Shown here: in pieces, positions 616 to 12,066 of the stretch
How positions within the stretch are numbered: position 1 is the stretch's first letter
Layout: each line of letters opens with the position of its first letter
DNA from: a virus
Length of the DNA stretch: 29,376 nt
Strand: one strand, 5' to 3'
Virus record (IMG/VR): IMGVR_UViG_3300025759_000476
Location: 1 to 29,376 of that record
The notes under the pieces: generated by a model
Database searches by the model: none
Seen by the model: only the letters and a program-made list of their open reading frames with translations
What the model was told of the DNA's origin: nothing
Program-made: the position numbers and the translations under genes

Positions 616-1839
616 TTACTCTAAATGTTGAGCTACTTCGTTAGATGCTGCTATAAGTTTTTCTGCATCATTCCAATCTTTATCTCTTTCATATAATTTA
701 GTCATATGTCTGCTGCTATGTCTTAAATGATCTTGGCTAGTCTTATCTAATTTTAAATACTTCCTATACACAGCTCCAAAACTTCTAAAATCATGGGTGC
801 TAATATCTTCATTCCATCCAGCTAATATAAATATTTTTTTTATATTTTTTAAAATAATACTATATGATTTGTAGTTACCATTACTTGCTGGAAATATTAA
901 TTGTTTAGTATTCGTTTTATTTTTTAATTCTTCTAACCATTCTATATATATTTTTGTAAATTCTTCAGATACAAAAACTAAATTGTTTGACTCTTTTGAT
1001 TTTGTATAACTTACCAAACCTGTTTTTATATCAATAGCTTTATTAATTAAAAAAGCATTCATCCTCACATCATAATCTCTTGTTTCTAAAGGTATTAATT
1101 CAGATATTCTAATGTTTCCCTCTAACAAAGCTCGAAGTAATATATAATAAAACTTCCCTGGATTATGTCTTTTAGGAAAAATAGTTGCTTGTTTTGCTAT
1201 TAATAATGCTTTGTTAACAATTAACATCGTTCTTTCAGGTCCATTAAAATTTAATATTGGCGGCACATATTTTTCTCTTCTTTTCCAGGCACTTGTAAAA
1301 CTTCCTCTTGGTACACTTTTTGTTATAAACATAGGCACACCCATATTTTCAGCAGCAGCTACGTTTAATATTGCACCTAATCGCATCCAAGAATTTTTGT
1401 TTTGTCTTAACCCCATGCAAGTAAGAAGTTTATTACTAAGTGATGTAAGCATTTGTAGGTTTACTTCTTTAACCATTATATCTTTTAATTTCTTTCCATT
1501 GTATTCTATATCTTTAATAGCGCTCCAAGAGTGTTCATAATCTCTTAGTGTGCTATCTTTAATAATTCCATTATCTCTTTTTCCTTCTTGTAATTTAATT
1601 TCTATTTGTGCTGCATCATCTATAGTTGCATTAGATACTGTATAAATATTATGTTTTACTTTATTCTTTTGCTCCGTTCTAACATCATCTAATTCACTAA
1701 TAGTAGCACCAAAAAATCTTTCTGTTTTAAATTTTTGTTTATCGTACACATCAAAATAATATTTATTATTTGTATTTTTTTTATTAACCTTACTTGTAGG
1801 TGTAGGTCTAATGTTTCTTACGCTAAATCGATTTATCAT
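616..1839 (-). CDS. int: Tyrosine-family integrase
   Basis: A 407-residue site-specific recombinase that would insert and excise the phage at a host tRNA gene. The catalytic set is visible: Arg244 (NIRISEL), Lys near 280-282 (YTKSK), His349-x-x-Arg352 (STHDFRS), His374 (LRHSSR) and the nucleophile Tyr383 (TKLYERD). Residues 1-60 look like an arm-binding domain and about 70-180 a core-binding SAM-like domain (TLRDYEHSW, MRLGAILNVA). Length is normal for phage integrases. The gene reads leftward, away from the attP-like site 168 bases upstream of its start, which is the usual arrangement. It converges with the holin/zinc-ribbon pair, and no clear terminator lies between them. Confidence 0.93.
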   Translation of the reverse strand: MINRFSVRNIRPTPTSKVNKKNTNNKYYFDVYDKQKFKTERFFGATISELDDVRTEQKNKVKHNIYTVSNATIDDAAQIEIKLQEGKRDNGIIKDSTLRDYEHSWSAIKDIEYNGKKLKDIMVKEVNLQMLTSLSNKLLTCMGLRQNKNSWMRLGAILNVAAAENMGVPMFITKSVPRGSFTSAWKRREKYVPPILNFNGPERTMLIVNKALLIAKQATIFPKRHNPGKFYYILLRALLEGNIRISELIPLETRDYDVRMNAFLINKAIDIKTGLVSYTKSKESNNLVFVSEEFTKIYIEWLEELKNKTNTKQLIFPASNGNYKSYSIILKNIKKIFILAGWNEDISTHDFRSFGAVYRKYLKLDKTSQDHLRHSSRHMTKLYERDKDWNDAEKLIAASNEVAQHLE

Positions 1840-1880: not shown

Positions 1881-2123
1881 TCCTCATGTTTTTTCCTCAC
1901 GTTTTTAGTCATGCAACGATATGAAACTGTATGAAATTACCTAGGTTTATTTAAACTTGAATGAAACACAAAAGCCTGTAAAACTCTTATAAATTAAATT
2001 ATCTAGCTGGTTTGGGACCAGGGGGTCGAAGGTTCGAATCCTTTCTCCCCGACCACTTTTCCGCCATTTTTTAATTAAAGTTTATTCAAAAAACAAATTA
2101 GTAATGTTTTTAGTCACGTTTAT
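1881..2123. repeat. attP arm-type repeats around the core
   Basis: The 280 bases between the integrase and the next gene hold short repeats on both sides of the tRNA core. TCCTCATGTTTTT (1881-1893) is followed at once by TCCTCACGTTTTT (1894-1906), a 13-base tandem differing at one base. GTTTTTAGTCATG (1901-1913) recurs as GTTTTTAGTCACG (2106-2118), 12 of 13 identical, beyond the core. The common element is TCAYGTTT at 1884, 1897 and 2114. TATGAAA also occurs twice in tandem (1920 and 1930), with ATGAAAC again at 1961. Flanking repeats are typical of integrase arm sites and excisionase sites. The binding assignment is inference. Confidence 0.5.
2007..2055 (+). other. attP: attP core: 3' half of tRNA-Pro(UGG)
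   Basis: The site reads as the 3' half of a proline tRNA. It has an anticodon arm CTGGTTTGGGACCAG (anticodon TGG), a variable region GGGGTC, a T arm with GAAGG, loop TTCGAAT and CCTTT, then acceptor strand CTCCCCG, discriminator A and CCA. The matching 5' acceptor strand (CGGGGAG) and D arm are absent upstream, so this is not a working tRNA gene. Phages that integrate in tRNA genes carry exactly such a 3' segment, which restores the tRNA after insertion. It lies upstream of the integrase, with phage genes on both sides, so it is attP rather than attL or attR. The host target is inferred to be tRNA-Pro(UGG). Confidence 0.85.
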
Positions 2124-5732: not shown

Positions 5733-6377
5733 CTATTCTATGTGCATAATTGAGTCATTATCCATAATATCTGGTACAGCTTTTAAATTAACTGATCCTT
5801 CAAAAATGCAATTCCATTCAATTTTTAACCTTAATGTACTATTTCCATACATTGGCGTAAATGAATGTTTTTCATTTTTATCTGGTTTACCTAACCACCC
5901 AATGAGAAAATCTCCATTATCTCTTTGTATTAAATTAATTGTTCCATAACCTAATATATTTTTGATTTTTTTTCTTTGGTATTCAGTATTAAATACATAA
6001 CAAAGACCTTCGTAAAATTTTAATCTCCAATCTGTATCTCGATCTTGATTTCCTCTAAAAACAATACCTATGCTGCCAGCTCTTATTGCTGTTGGTATTT
6101 TTAAAATAGGTCTATCAAATTGAAACATATCAACTTTTGTTCCTGAATAAAATTGTCCAATTAATTCTAAATCTAATGGTGGAAATAATAAATCTTGTTC
6201 TCTAACACCTAAAACTCCCTCTTTGTAATTAGCTAATTGATGTGCAAATTTTTGAGTTAAAGCTGCTTTTTTATTTAAAACTTTATTAAAATGTATTGGA
6301 TCTATACCAATATCTGTTGCTATATCTTTTTGCTTTAATCCAGCATCACGAATAGCCGTCTTAAGAAAATCGTTCAT
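5733..6377 (-). CDS. CI-like phage repressor
   Basis: A 214-residue regulator from ATG 6377 (MNDFLKTAI); starts at 6392 or 6407 are possible but run into the operator region. Residues about 1-60 hold a Xre-type helix-turn-helix (LKTAIRDAGLKQKDIATDIG, then DPIHFNKVLNKKAAL). The C-terminal part is beta-rich (IPTAIRAGSIGIVF, then YGTINLIQ, DFLIGWLGKP, LRLKIEW) and resembles a dimerisation or S24-like fold. I see no convincing Ser/Lys self-cleavage pair or Ala-Gly cleavage site, so induction may not follow the lambda route. Divergent from the Cro-like gene and flanked by shared operators, it is the likely lysogeny repressor. Confidence 0.72.
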   Translation of the reverse strand: MNDFLKTAIRDAGLKQKDIATDIGIDPIHFNKVLNKKAALTQKFAHQLANYKEGVLGVREQDLLFPPLDLELIGQFYSGTKVDMFQFDRPILKIPTAIRAGSIGIVFRGNQDRDTDWRLKFYEGLCYVFNTEYQRKKIKNILGYGTINLIQRDNGDFLIGWLGKPDKNEKHSFTPMYGNSTLRLKIEWNCIFEGSVNLKAVPDIMDNDSIMHIE

Positions 6378-6380
6378 TAT

Positions 6381-6458
6381 TGCTAATGTCATAACAATTA
6401 TTAGCATTAAATGCTATTGTGAAAAAAAGCAAATAAAAAATTTAACTTGTGAAAAAAA
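6381..6458 (+). promoter_or_regulatory. Repressor/cro intergenic operators (OR-like)
   Basis: The gap between the repressor and Cro-like genes is dense in repeats. TGCTAAT (6381-6387) faces ATTAGCA (6400-6406). TAGCAT-TAA-ATGCTA (6402-6416) is a perfect inverted repeat. ATTGTGAAAAAAAGCAAATA (6416-6435) matches the OL-like element at 17 of 20 positions. TTGTGAAAAAAA occurs twice, at 6417-6428 and 6447-6458, exactly 30 bases apart, about three helical turns. TATTAGCATT (6399-6408) is identical to 5686-5695. This fits cooperative repressor binding over divergent promoters. No strong consensus promoter is seen in either direction. Confidence 0.55.
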
Positions 6459-6485: not shown

Positions 6486-6689
6486 ATGACGTTAAAAGAG
6501 TGGAAAATAACTCAAAATATTCACAGTTTTAGGGAATTAGCTGAGAAATTAGGGGTAAATTCATCAAGAAATCCAGCTAGATTAGTACAAAGATGGGTCC
6601 AAGGTGACTCAATACCAAGAGAAAAGCATTTAAAAATTATAATGAGGGTAACGGATGGCAAAGTCACACCGAACGATTTTATTTCCTAA
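6486..6689 (+). CDS. Cro-like helix-turn-helix regulator
   Basis: A 67-residue DNA-binding protein, first gene of the rightward early operon and divergent from the repressor. HSFRELAEKLGVNSSRNPAR then LVQRWVQGDSIPREKHL is a Xre/Cro-type helix-turn-helix with the usual 'W-x-x-G-x-S-I-P' segment after the recognition helix. Size and position match phage Cro proteins, which repress the repressor promoter and commit to lytic growth. The end overlaps the next gene by 35 bases. Confidence 0.75.
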   Translation: MTLKEWKITQNIHSFRELAEKLGVNSSRNPARLVQRWVQGDSIPREKHLKIIMRVTDGKVTPNDFIS

Positions 6690-6996
6690 GCATATAAAAG
6701 TTGGATCAGTGGACATATCTGTCCACCTTGTTGAAAATTTAGTTAGTATTTCTGAGGATGAAGGCAGTTATGATGGAACTAAACAATCTATAATACTTGA
6801 TAAATCAATCATAGAACGCTGTAATTCTTATTCTTTATTGTTAGTGCTGCATGAACTTAATCATGTCATTTTTGATCATCATCTTCTTAAATCGGCGGAA
6901 GAAGAGATTGTCGTTAATGCTTTTTCACACAGCACAGTACAAATAATGCGAGATAATCCTGTTTTTAAAGATTGGGTTTATCAATGTCTGACTTAG
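6655..6996 (+). CDS. HExxH metallopeptidase-like protein (ImmA/IrrE or SprT-like)
   Basis: A 113-residue protein with a clear zinc-peptidase motif: LLLVLHELNHVIFDHH gives H66-E67-x-x-H70, and acidic residues about 82-84 (AEEEIV) could supply the third ligand. This is the short form found in many phages near regulators. It resembles ImmA/IrrE or SprT domains, and ImmA in mobile elements cleaves the repressor to induce excision. The start ATG at 6655 has GAGGG seven bases upstream, inside the Cro-like gene. Lying directly behind a Cro-like gene and opposite a repressor lacking obvious self-cleavage residues, it could act on that repressor. That role is inference. Confidence 0.72.
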   Translation: MAKSHRTILFPKHIKVGSVDISVHLVENLVSISEDEGSYDGTKQSIILDKSIIERCNSYSLLLVLHELNHVIFDHHLLKSAEEEIVVNAFSHSTVQIMRDNPVFKDWVYQCLT

Positions 6997-7331
6997 GATT
7001 TACAGATTTAGAATATAAACGATTAAAAGAACTAGCAGCTATGGATAATTTATATCCAAGAGCCTTAGTTAAAGGGGGATTACTTGATTGGTGTATATCT
7101 GTTTGCAAATTTTATGGAATTACTGTTCCTGAATTTAGATCTAAAAAAAGAGATAGAATACTTTTTAAAGCTAGAGTCGATTTTACCTGGATAATTTTAA
7201 ATCATGTTCCAAAATATAACATGAATGAAATTGCCAAGTTTATGAATAGAGATCACACTACAATTATACATCAAAAGAAACAAAAACCTTTTGCTGCGGA
7301 AACTATTTGGCTTCAAAATGTTACTCGATAG
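6984..7331 (+). CDS. Stand-alone DnaA domain IV-like DNA-binding protein
   Basis: A 115-residue protein from ATG 6984 (a TTG at 6972 would add four residues). Residues about 40-100 follow the DnaA C-terminal domain: CKFYGITVPEFRSKKRDR, then RVDFTWIILNHV, then MNEIAKFMNRDHTTIIHQ. The last part matches the DnaA signature G-R-D-H-T-T-V-L-H, which reads DnaA boxes in the origin. The AAA+ ATPase and domain I are missing. It probably binds DnaA-box-like sites, either to place the host replisome on phage DNA or to compete with host DnaA. It overlaps both neighbours by about 13 bases and is followed by a replication-type winged-helix gene. Confidence 0.78.
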   Translation: MSDLGFTDLEYKRLKELAAMDNLYPRALVKGGLLDWCISVCKFYGITVPEFRSKKRDRILFKARVDFTWIILNHVPKYNMNEIAKFMNRDHTTIIHQKKQKPFAAETIWLQNVTR

Positions 7332-7923
7332 ATGGAAGTTATTAAGTAAGGTTATGTCTGATAACAGATTAACGTCTGCTAGTTCTCTTAAAGTTATGTT
7401 TTTTTTATTGAATAGAGAGAATAGTAAAACAAAAGCCTTATTTCCTAGTCATGCCAGGTTAGCTAAAGATACAAACATGAGTACAAGATCTGTTAGACGA
7501 GGTATTGATGAACTAATTGCAAAAAATTATTTAATAAAATTAAAAAAAGGTTCTCCAGGACGTGCTACTTCATATCAAATTAATTATATACACAGGACAG
7601 AATTGTCACAAACAGAGGACAAGATTGTCGTAAATATAGGGACAGAATTGTCCGACCAATCTACAAATAAATCTATTAATAAATCTAAACTAAATAATTT
7701 TATTAACAACATCACAAAGAATACTCATGCTGGTTATAAGCAAGTTAAAGAGGGGAAGAAGAAATCATATAATTCTGATGAAATGGTGGCTCAACGCATA
7801 CTTCAAAAGACTAATGATGTTTCTAAGTCAGAAGCCTATTTAACATTAAAAAAATCAGCTAATTGGGATGATAAAGTGCGAGCAGAAGAATTTGCCATAC
7901 ACCTTGGATGTCTAAAGAAATAA
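7318..7923 (+). CDS. Winged-helix replication protein
   Basis: A 201-residue protein (ATG 7318; a TTG at 7291 is possible). Its N-terminal part is a GntR/HTH_36-type winged helix: ASSLKVMFFLLNREN, then FPSHARLAKDTNMSTRSVRR, GIDELIAKNYLIKLKKGS, then the wing GRATSYQINYI. This is the layout of phage replisome organisers and of many phage 'helix-turn-helix' replication proteins. A Ser/Asn/Lys linker follows, and a C-terminal helical segment (YLTLKKSANWDDKVRAEEF) could contact a partner. Next to the DnaA-like gene it is the best candidate for the origin-binding or helicase-loading protein. No helicase or polymerase follows, so host enzymes are likely used. Confidence 0.7.
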   Translation: MLLDRWKLLSKVMSDNRLTSASSLKVMFFLLNRENSKTKALFPSHARLAKDTNMSTRSVRRGIDELIAKNYLIKLKKGSPGRATSYQINYIHRTELSQTEDKIVVNIGTELSDQSTNKSINKSKLNNFINNITKNTHAGYKQVKEGKKKSYNSDEMVAQRILQKTNDVSKSEAYLTLKKSANWDDKVRAEEFAIHLGCLKK

Positions 7924-8336
7924 AAACAAAGCACATAGAAAATTTATTTGATGAAGCAGCTAGGACCGATAGTCGGCTACCTTCAGCAATAAAAAAACAA
8001 AGCACAACAGCTCAATGGTTAGAAATGAAAGTTGAAAAGATGTATAAACATTCTTACCATGAAGCGCAGATATTATTGATCCCAAATAGTCGGCAAATTA
8101 GTCGGTGGTGGGTTGCAAGTACAATATTACGGGAAATAGTTGAGGAAAAAGATAAAAAAGACATTATCTGGTTAAAAGCAAAACGATTTCCCTGGACTCA
8201 GATTAGTCGGATTGTCGGATTAGATAGGCGTAAAGTTAAACGATTGTATGAGGAAGAAATAATATATATTCGGTTGTGGCTACAACTACATCAAAAGAAT
8301 AAAAAAATAAGTGACATGATTGACAAAATAATTTAA
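7908..8336 (+). CDS. DUF6362-like protein with C-terminal HTH
   Basis: A 142-residue protein recalling the DUF6362 family of alphaproteobacterial phages. The N-terminus has LFDEAARTDSRLPSA; the middle has SRWWVASTILREIVEE; the end has IIWLKAKRFPWTQISRIVG then DRRKVKRLYEEEI, a sigma region 4-like helix-turn-helix ('W-T-Q-I-S-R-I-V-G-L-D-R'). It is the last gene of the early rightward operon and the last before the late region, a place where phages often carry a late-gene activator or antiterminator. Function is unproven. It overlaps the upstream gene by 16 bases and converges with an HTH gene after 19 bases. Confidence 0.68.
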   Translation: MSKEIKTKHIENLFDEAARTDSRLPSAIKKQSTTAQWLEMKVEKMYKHSYHEAQILLIPNSRQISRWWVASTILREIVEEKDKKDIIWLKAKRFPWTQISRIVGLDRRKVKRLYEEEIIYIRLWLQLHQKNKKISDMIDKII

Positions 8337-8586: not shown

Positions 8587-8616
8587 AAAAAAAACCCCCT
8601 TAAAAAAGAGGGTTTT
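8587..8616 (-). terminator. Rho-independent terminator of leftward cassette
   Basis: On the minus strand AAAACCC and GGGTTTT form the base of a hairpin (8591-8597 with 8610-8616). Two more pairs inside follow one C/A mismatch, and the loop is TAAAAA. The hairpin is followed by eight T residues reading leftward. It lies 11 bases past the stop of the 50-residue gene and would end the 9697-to-8628 transcript. The rightward reading lacks a long T run, so it acts mainly leftward. Confidence 0.8.
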
Positions 8617-9789: not shown

Positions 9790-10065
9790 ATGACAGGACG
9801 ACCATTAAAAAAAATTCAATGCCAGGCGCGGCGTAAATATGACGGCAAGCAGTGCCAGGCTAAAGGTATAAAAACAAAGAAAGGGAGTTATATATGCAGA
9901 TTGCACGGGGGTCTAAGTACAGGACCGAAAACAATAGAAGGGAAAATAAAAAGTTTACAAAAACTAAAACAATATAAAAATAAAACTTATGAAGAAATCA
10001 GAGAAATTATTGAATTTAATAATATCCAGGCTACAGCTCGGGGAAACATTAACAAGCATTTGTAG
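9790..10065 (+). CDS. HGG-motif zinc-binding protein at start of packaging region
   Basis: A 91-residue basic protein with the widespread phage motif C-x-A-x(n)-C, then C-x2-H-G-G-x-S-T-G-P-K-T: CQARRKYDGKQCQAKG, then YICRLHGGLSTGPKTIEG. The three cysteines and the histidine probably bind zinc. Genes of this 'HGG-STGP' type often sit just before the small terminase gene in phages and prophages. Their role is not known; an HNH-like or DNA-handling role is sometimes suggested. The second half is a lysine-rich helix whose coding sequence overlaps the small terminase gene by 77 bases. Confidence 0.72.
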   Translation: MTGRPLKKIQCQARRKYDGKQCQAKGIKTKKGSYICRLHGGLSTGPKTIEGKIKSLQKLKQYKNKTYEEIREIIEFNNIQATARGNINKHL

Positions 10066-10453
10066 ATCAAAAGAAATGCCAAACTTGTCCACCGTTTATG
10101 ATTGGATGAATAAAGATAAACAATTAAAAGAAAACATATTAGACGCCAGGAGAATAGGCGCGATGACTTGGCTGGATAAAATGCAAGATTTATTAGACCA
10201 GGAAGTTGAACCTCAACAGGTACAATGGAACAGGGAAAGACTCCACCACTCACGATGGATGGCGTCAAAGCTCGTTAGTGTGTTTAATGATAAGGTTATT
10301 AATGAGAATATAGGAGAGCCACAAATCAAAATAGTATGGGATGATGGTTATTCGGAACGTAAAGACGAACAGCACGCGCGCACGATATCAAGTACGGATG
10401 ATATTAAAAATATTAAACATGACCAAACGCATGACAAAAGCAAAATAAACTAG
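9989..10453 (+). CDS. terS: Terminase small subunit
   Basis: A 154-residue protein that would recognise phage DNA and recruit the large terminase. The N-terminal helix-turn-helix is typical: LIISRLQLGETLTSICRS, then EMPNLSTVYDWMNKDKQLKE, then ILDARRIGAMTWLDKM, the pattern 'G-x-x-L-x-x-I-C-x-x-x-x-M-P-x-x-S-T-V-Y-x-W'. A central helical oligomerisation part (RERLHHSRWMASKLV) and a polar, flexible C-terminal tail follow. ATG 9989 is needed to keep the first helix (a TTG at 10010 is the alternative), which forces the long overlap with the HGG gene. Confidence 0.75.
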   Translation: MKKSEKLLNLIISRLQLGETLTSICRSKEMPNLSTVYDWMNKDKQLKENILDARRIGAMTWLDKMQDLLDQEVEPQQVQWNRERLHHSRWMASKLVSVFNDKVINENIGEPQIKIVWDDGYSERKDEQHARTISSTDDIKNIKHDQTHDKSKIN

Positions 10454-10600: not shown

Positions 10601-10774
10601 ATGGACAGACAGATACAAGCACTCGTGCTGGTTGACGAAAAAAAGAAAAAAATAATTTTGGAAATGCAAAATTTTATTAACGATGAAGAAATGTTTGATA
10701 CAGCTAAATTTATAGTGGCTGCGTTAAATATAGAACAGGTTGATCCAAAAATTTTAGGAGAAACAATAAACTAA
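10601..10774 (+). CDS. Small protein before large terminase
   Basis: A 57-residue acidic helical protein (MDRQIQALVLVDEKKKKIIL, then EEMFDTAKFIVAALN). Its stop overlaps the large terminase start as TAATG (10772-10776), so it is probably translated and coupled. The ribosome site is weak (GGGAG about 12 bases upstream). No family is recognised. The 147 bases before it, after the small terminase stop, hold no gene I can support; they contain a 12-base palindrome ATTAATATTAAT near 10510. Confidence 0.5.
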   Translation: MDRQIQALVLVDEKKKKIILEMQNFINDEEMFDTAKFIVAALNIEQVDPKILGETIN

Positions 10775-12066
10775 TGAAAGTTATTAAAATACCTTACACA
10801 CCTAGACCACAACAACGAATGTTGCATGAGCAACTAGATAAATATCGTTTTGCGGTTGCGGTAATGCATCGTAGAGCTGGGAAAACTGTATTTGCAATAA
10901 ATCATTTAATTAAACTAGCCTTGACTAGCACTAAACGTAACTTTAGGGGTGCGTTTTTTTCTCCAACAAGGGTGCAATCTAAATTAGTTGCATGGGATTA
11001 TTTAAAAGAATTTTCTCGTAAGATACCTGGAACGAAATTTAATGAAACAGAATTACGAGCTGACTATCCTACGGGTGGAAGAATAACACTATTCGGAGCT
11101 GAAAATCCTGATGCTGCAAGGGGTCAATACTATGACTTTGTTGTTTGTGATGAATATGCTCAGATGGATGCAAGAATGTTTGCAGAAATTATTAGACCCG
11201 CTATCGCTGATAGGCTTGGCTCAGTTTGTTTCATAGGGACTCCCGCTGGAATGGGAAATAATTTTTATGATTTGTTTGAAGATGCAAAGTCATTACCCGA
11301 ATGGTTTACTTGTACGTTTAGAGCAAGTGAAACAGGATTAGTACCAAAAGAAGAATTAGAGTCGGCAAAAAAACTGATGACGGAAGATCAGTATGCACAA
11401 GAATTTGAATGTTCTTGGACAGCCAATATATCTGGTTCTATTTACGGAAAAACAATTCAACAAATGGAAGAGGATAAACAAATATCAAAGTTTCCATATG
11501 ACCCTGGTTATCCAGTTGATGTGTATTTTGATCTAGGAATTAGTGATCAAACAGTAATTTTGTTTACACAACAGGTTGGAAGAGCCTTAATTGTTATAGA
11601 TTGTTATGCTGATAGCAATAAAAGTCTTGACTACTACGCCGATTATATACGAAAAACAAATTATAATATCCGAAATTACGTTTTTCCTCACGACATAGAA
11701 CAAAGAGAACTATCAACTGGTCATTCTAGGAAGGAATATGCGTATAATATGGGGATGTCACCCCTAAAAGTGTGTCCAAAATTGTCCATAGAGGATGGTA
11801 TTCACGCTGGTCAGATATTATTAGCTAAAACCTACATAGATAGAGAGAAGTGTAAGCCATTTTTAGATGCGATGAAGTGGTATCATAGAAAGTGGATAGA
11901 TAAACAAAGAATTTTCTCTAAGCCAGTACATGACCATAGTAGTCATTATGCTGATGCTTGGCGAACTTGTGCTGTAGCAATACGTGAACTAGACTTAAAC
12001 AACAACAGGAGATTAGATAAGTTTGCTGTTGGAACAAATTATAACCCCTTGGGAGAAAGGATGTAA
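10774..12066 (+). CDS. terL: Terminase large subunit
   Basis: A 430-residue packaging motor. The ATPase domain has a Walker A-like HRRAGKT (32-38), adenine-binding PRPQQ near the start, Walker B FVVCDE (122-127) and a coupling motif GTPAGMGN. The C-terminal RNase H-type nuclease domain starts with VDVYFDLGISD (first metal Asp about 250), continues with ALIVIDCYAD, and ends with HDHSSHYADAWR carrying the last acidic residue. Length and order fit T7/BPP-1-like podovirus terminases. It would cut and pump DNA into the prohead through the portal. All catalytic residues appear present. Confidence 0.93.
   Translation: MKVIKIPYTPRPQQRMLHEQLDKYRFAVAVMHRRAGKTVFAINHLIKLALTSTKRNFRGAFFSPTRVQSKLVAWDYLKEFSRKIPGTKFNETELRADYPTGGRITLFGAENPDAARGQYYDFVVCDEYAQMDARMFAEIIRPAIADRLGSVCFIGTPAGMGNNFYDLFEDAKSLPEWFTCTFRASETGLVPKEELESAKKLMTEDQYAQEFECSWTANISGSIYGKTIQQMEEDKQISKFPYDPGYPVDVYFDLGISDQTVILFTQQVGRALIVIDCYADSNKSLDYYADYIRKTNYNIRNYVFPHDIEQRELSTGHSRKEYAYNMGMSPLKVCPKLSIEDGIHAGQILLAKTYIDREKCKPFLDAMKWYHRKWIDKQRIFSKPVHDHSSHYADAWRTCAVAIRELDLNNNRRLDKFAVGTNYNPLGERM

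Follow-up and report, generated by a model that had tools for sequence, protein, structure and literature searches.

What does a phage do with a stand-alone DnaA domain IV, encoded directly upstream of a replication initiator gene of its own? The initial annotation of this locus offered two answers: the protein either points the host initiation machinery to the phage origin or blocks host initiation. To choose between these and other readings, it is necessary to consider the protein itself, the genes around it, the way in which these genes vary among related phages, and the DNA sites that the protein could use. The window, that is, the whole stretch of DNA that was analysed, comprises 29,376 bases; it is a linear fragment from IMG/VR that breaks off inside a tail-fibre gene. 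Its relevant features are collected in Table 1.

Table 1. Features of the window relevant to the DnaA-like gene, with the basis of each assignment
Feature	Position	Strand	Basis
Tyrosine integrase	616-1839	-	Pfam
Probable attP next to the integrase: truncated tRNA-Pro (UGG) gene, 3' half with terminal CCA	2003-2055	+	
Repressor-like HTH protein, divergent from the cassette	5733-6407	-	PHROGs
Small HTH protein in the cro position	6486-6689	+	Pfam, PHROGs
113-aa protein with HExxH-like stretch HELNH (phrog_1233), conserved cassette member	6655-6996	+	PHROGs
Stand-alone DnaA domain IV protein, 115 aa, start codon ATG	6984-7331	+	Pfam, PDB matches, AlphaFold/Foldseek
Parts of the DnaA-like protein: conserved N-terminal helix; HTH domain	residues 8-21; residues 33-113		
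Lambda-O-like replication initiator (HTH_36), 201 aa, start ATG at 7318	7318-7923	+	Pfam, PHROGs
Three in-gene iterons, GGACAGAATTGTC and close copies, 22/23-bp spacing; candidate origin	7594-7652	+	
AT-rich tract with 12-bp repeats adjoining the iterons; candidate unwinding element	7658-7740		
DUF6362 protein (PF19889), end of the operon, just ahead of the late genes	7908-8336	+	Pfam, predicted model
Small terminase gene	9989-10453	+	
Large terminase gene	10774-12066	+	HTVC010P-type homology

The identity of the protein is confirmed: it is a lone DnaA domain IV without the AAA+ part, as initially annotated, and Pfam and the PDB agree on this. The Pfam family PF08299 (Bac_DnaA_C) matches residues 40-98 with 45.9 bits (curated cut-off 31.5 bits; E 5.8e-12), while no AAA+ family in Pfam matches any part of the 115 residues. 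All PDB sequence matches at E<=10 are DnaA chains. A profile of the 14-sequence family gives six significant matches in the PDB, every one of them DnaA (best 1.4e-7), and PF08299 is recognised in all 14 relatives at E<=0.01. The structure comparison that had been proposed as a check points the same way. In the AlphaFold model (mean pLDDT 82), the helices follow one another as in domain IV. The ten best Foldseek matches of this model in the PDB are all DnaA, with probabilities of 0.97-1.00, TM-scores of 0.54/0.65 (3pvp) and 0.53/0.64 (1j1v), and modest E-values of 4e-3 to 0.3.

With bacterial DnaA domain IV (1J1V, 3PVP) the phage protein shares both the fold and the main DNA-contact residues. 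Alignment to E. coli DnaA places Arg399, Asp433, His434, Thr435 and Thr436 at R56, D90, H91, T92 and T93, so that all five are retained; the E. coli variants R399A and T435M are reported to be defective in DnaA-box binding (PMC5742627). The differences from bacterial DnaA are the absence of the AAA+ domain and of domains I-II and a sequence identity of 18-22% in the structural alignment. The N-terminal helix of the phage protein, in which E10 and K15 are invariant across the family, is without counterpart in domain IV.

Relatives of the locus were gathered via the terminase; a direct search with the DnaA-like protein gave no relatives among viral contigs and one distant match only among bacterial genomes. 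In 11 of 29 related virus records, an intact DnaA_C reading frame lies at the same place. This conservation, together with a dN/dS of 0.12-0.34 among close relatives, a sign of purifying selection, indicates that the gene is real and functional.

The gene content characterises the phage as temperate and of the HTVC010P type: the integrase, the probable attP, the repressor/cro pair, the large terminase (TerL) and the virion genes, which are those of a T7-type podovirus, are all consistent with this. TerL is 49-53% identical to that of HTVC010P-type pelagiphages over 94-97% of the protein, and for this reason the host is probably, not certainly, a SAR11-like bacterium. The half-gene of tRNA-Pro predicts, as the probable attP, integration into the host tRNA-Pro gene. 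The initial observation that polymerase and helicase are missing holds beyond the window, where, as it is a fragment, absences alone are weak: DnaB_C and DNA_pol_A are absent both from it and from 14 further records of related or reference phages. Primase was looked for solely via the PHROGs annotation of the reading frames. Dependence of the phage on host helicase and polymerase is thereby supported.

The DnaA-like gene is the third member of a five-gene cassette, in the order cro-like gene, HELNH protein, DnaA-like gene, O-like initiator and DUF6362. This order is identical at all 11 DnaA_C loci of the related records and was seen in further relatives too. Every relative that bears DnaA_C and includes the region also has the HELNH protein, which is missing from most relatives without DnaA_C (one of these, L051, has it). 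The predicted model of the DUF6362 protein has sigma factor region 4 as its best match, with a probability of 0.97 but a weak E-value of 0.99, and the protein is possibly a late-gene activator or anti-terminator. It is also found in phages without the DnaA-like gene; used as a query, it returned no viral relatives. Between DUF6362 and the late genes, a strong stem-loop with T tracts on both strands (8591-8616) is a candidate bidirectional terminator.

The next member of the cassette bears directly on where the phage begins its replication. The O-like gene, whose first 14 nt are also the last 14 of the DnaA-like gene, encodes a protein matching PHROGs phrog_678 ('replication initiation O-like') at E 2.4e-10 and, weakly, DnaD-like helicase loaders. 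In lambdoid origins, iterons and an AT-rich tract lie in the middle of the O gene (PMC7466680), and the layout is the same here: an N-terminal HTH, mid-gene iterons and an adjacent AT-rich tract are common to lambda O/ori-lambda and the O-like gene, and the 80 bases after the iterons are 76% AT. The arrangement differs from ori-lambda in that three iterons rather than four were found in the window and no P-like helicase-loader gene was recognised among the reading frames scanned.

The iteron period is a property of the group and not only of the window. In a comparison of 26 related O genes, the best score for three copies averages 32.6 of 42 at a period of 22, compared with 20.6-23.8 at all other periods from 15 to 30. 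At period 22, 20 of the 26 genes score 30 or more; among the 390 combinations of a gene with another period, 1 does. The iteron sequences vary among these genes, but their position (around base 270 of the gene) and spacing are constant, and the 22-bp period occurs whether or not the DnaA-like gene is present. The iterons and AT-rich tract of the O gene are consequently the better candidate for the phage origin, and replication is most likely begun there by the O-like protein, which would use host helicase and polymerase. For the idea that the DnaA-like protein directs host machinery to the phage origin, this is unfavourable: the adjacent O gene has iterons and an AT-rich tract of its own, and this layout is kept in relatives without the DnaA-like gene and stays unchanged when that gene is swapped.

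Such swaps show that the DnaA-like gene is an exchangeable module, replaced as a unit. For most of 19 kb, the two related records L014 and L016 show 93-96% identity, and the identities of their proteins are 95% for the HELNH protein, 96% for O and 99% for DUF6362, but 41% for the DnaA-like protein; the breakpoints in DNA identity coincide with the ends of its gene. The pair L021/L042 has the same pattern (80, 44, 88 and 90% in gene order, the DnaA-like protein being the second), and L008/L016 is the opposite case, in which the DnaA-like protein is 95% identical and its neighbours are more diverged. From these patterns it follows that the gene moves independently of O and the iterons. Within the DnaA_C group it is also the fastest-evolving member of the cassette, with a median pairwise protein identity of 37% compared with 52-62% for the other members.

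Sister phages, in which the terminase is 71-75% identical to that of the window, have an unrelated protein of about 100 aa in the slot that separates cro from O. This protein (8059-8385 in L069, 3389-3709 in L067) carries the pattern MISSK..NP....W.DP.ED..GW and has weak matches to an unknown PHROG only. In L051 and L084, the slot is taken by a different short protein of about 70-80 aa.

The recognition helix varies as well. In the window it reads RDHTTIIH, as in DnaA, and could bind DnaA boxes; in relatives it reads RHHTS, RHHTN, RHHTV, RDHTM, RNHNS, RKHNI or RKHNY. Among the 14 relatives, Asn replaces Thr435 in four and Asp433 is missing in nine. Since L014 and L016 share the K-H-N recognition type, this pair is uninformative on a change in specificity.

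No DNA site for the DnaA-like protein was found in the phage sequence examined. The search of the phage for DnaA boxes, proposed in the initial annotation, gave chance-level counts and no enrichment: seven occurrences of TTWTNCACA in the window against 6.7 expected, and seven of TTATCCACA with one mismatch against 10.3 expected. The exact TTATCCACA box is absent from the window and from 12 other loci scanned, an absence within chance. Two DnaA-box-like sites, TTTTTCACA at 6418 and 6448, fall within a 21-bp direct repeat in the gap that separates repressor and cro. They were rejected as DnaA_C targets, as relatives show a TTGCAA-type sequence there regardless of the recognition helix, and they look like promoter or operator elements. 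The iterons were likewise rejected as a target: they are present without the DnaA-like gene, and the types of recognition helix and iteron, inspected by eye, do not co-vary.

Taken with a probability of roughly 0.45, the favoured reading is that the DnaA-like protein is a transcription regulator, in preference to an origin accessory or a blocker of host initiation. It would bind phage promoters and contact host RNA polymerase in the manner of GafY, possibly acting jointly with the sigma-4-like DUF6362 protein of the same operon. Several lines of evidence argue for this. In lambda, the regulator cII lies between cro and O, and the slot considered here is the cII position. Where unrelated proteins occupy this slot, the O gene and its 22-bp iterons persist; the DnaA-like gene, for its part, is swapped alone, evolves fast and changes its recognition helix. 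DnaA_C proteins also occur in other settings. An unannotated Mu-like prophage on Rhizobium lusitanum plasmid p_1 encodes one of 248 aa (L097, 3728-4474, minus strand), flanked by the genes of a B-like transposition ATPase and Gam; Mu-like elements replicate by transposition, and no theta origin is expected in them. Lytic flavophages that possess their own primase have the domain too. The weak resemblance of the DUF6362 model to sigma region 4, just ahead of the late genes, adds to the argument, as does the precedent of GafY, a lone DnaA domain IV that activates transcription. Some points count against the regulator reading: no DNA site for the DnaA-like protein was found, the shared reading-frame end with O would equally fit a replication role, and the DUF6362 protein has a sigma-4 likeness with an E-value near 1 and occurs without the DnaA-like gene.

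The overlap of reading frames with O, directly downstream, is the starting point for a rather unlikely alternative, in which the protein, bound close to the phage origin, assists O in opening the DNA or recruiting host DnaB, partly replacing DnaA. The phage has no helicase of its own, and in the related lytic pelagiphages HTVC204P and HTVC100P, which have no strong O-like match, the DnaA_C genes carry the annotation DNA replication initiation. However, relatives that lack the DnaA-like gene still have O and its iterons, which the swap in L014/L016 also left unchanged, and the surroundings of the candidate origin yielded no second set of sites. In DnaA, it is the AAA+ domain and domain I that recruit the helicase, and both are absent here. 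Interference with host initiation, in which the protein would sit on the DnaA boxes of the host, at oriC or elsewhere under DnaA control, and so stop new rounds of host replication, is improbable. The part of this earlier proposal that stands concerns the window protein, which has its box-contact residues intact; as the phage sequences scanned contain no TTATCCACA box, binding would fall on the host, but that absence does not exceed chance. The proposal fits the family poorly, because relatives have lost contact residues while host DnaA boxes are conserved: the substitution of Thr435 and the losses of Asp433 would not be expected in a protein aimed at the conserved host box.

Two further readings have to be weighed. 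The exchange of this gene alone between near-identical phages, the unrelated alternatives in its slot and the diversified recognition helix would suit a superinfection or inter-phage specificity factor, whose exchangeable alleles tell a phage from its relatives. This reading, which overlaps with that of a regulator, is nevertheless doubtful, given that the repressor is a separate gene and no co-swapped cis site was found. Apart from the DnaA-like gene, only an accessory-gene block and a milder divergence of repressor and operator differ between L014 and L016; the block (5742-6258 in L014, 7694-8168 in L016) consists of small minus-strand genes. A role modelled on HdaB, in which the protein titrates Hda, host DnaA stays active and replication is promoted, is very improbable. 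In its first description, HdaB was a lone DnaA domain IV that worked via Hda (Frandi and Collier 2020, as cited in PMC9632790), but the same gene has been reinterpreted as GafY, with the replication effects put down to production of the gene transfer agent (GTA) (PMC9632790).

GafY of Caulobacter crescentus (formerly HdaB) is the best-characterised lone DnaA domain IV and corresponds to the N-terminal part of Rhodobacter GafA; it activates GTA promoters together with IHF and sigma70, which it contacts (PMC9632790, PMC11150451). GafZ, with which it is paired, is an anti-terminator that carries a sigma-like HTH (PMC11150451). The likeness to the window, compared by description, lies in a stand-alone DnaA domain IV in a phage-like system, and the HTH of GafZ is weakly paralleled by DUF6362. 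The systems differ in that GafY acts for a gene transfer agent and shares its operon with GafZ alone, whereas here the O-like gene separates the DnaA-like gene from DUF6362. PF19889 gave no match in Caulobacter, so by the Pfam model DUF6362 is not GafZ. It is a tentative and on balance unlikely extension of the favoured reading that exchangeable DnaA-domain-IV specificity regulators and a sigma-4-like operon partner switch on late transcription, as the counterpart in free-living phages, possibly the ancestor, of GafYZ.

The presence of a DnaA_C domain in this kind of phage is already known from pelagiphages and flavophages. HTVC204P gp23 and HTVC100P gp21 have the same Pfam domain (E 5e-18 and 1e-15) in phages with related virion genes, and share with the window protein a turn before the recognition helix that is one residue shorter. 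They differ in length (175-178 aa), in their N-terminal region and in their setting after nuclease and annealing-protein genes; no iterons were found beside these DnaA-like genes. Small stand-alone DnaA_C proteins have also been annotated in Flavobacterium Muminvirus and Microcystis phage Mae-JY35, which are unrelated phages with different gene neighbourhoods. Chen et al. 2019 reported DnaA in every HTVC010P-related genome that they examined (PMC6811365), and for Polarivirus skadi the use of host polymerases, a helicase loader and rolling-circle-like replication have been proposed (PMC10504331). In the open-access literature searched, neither the in-gene iteron origin nor the exchange of the DnaA-like gene turned up in an earlier report, and priority is uncertain.

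For the temperate group, the evidence argues against a literal reading of the annotation 'DnaA, replication initiation', because these phages have a lambda-style origin of their own and the DnaA-like gene is a swapped accessory. The candidate origin within the O gene is concrete and testable, and would serve phages without polymerase or helicase that are related to those of very abundant marine bacteria. The small DnaA-like phage proteins, in turn, may be linked to the GafY type of transcription activator.
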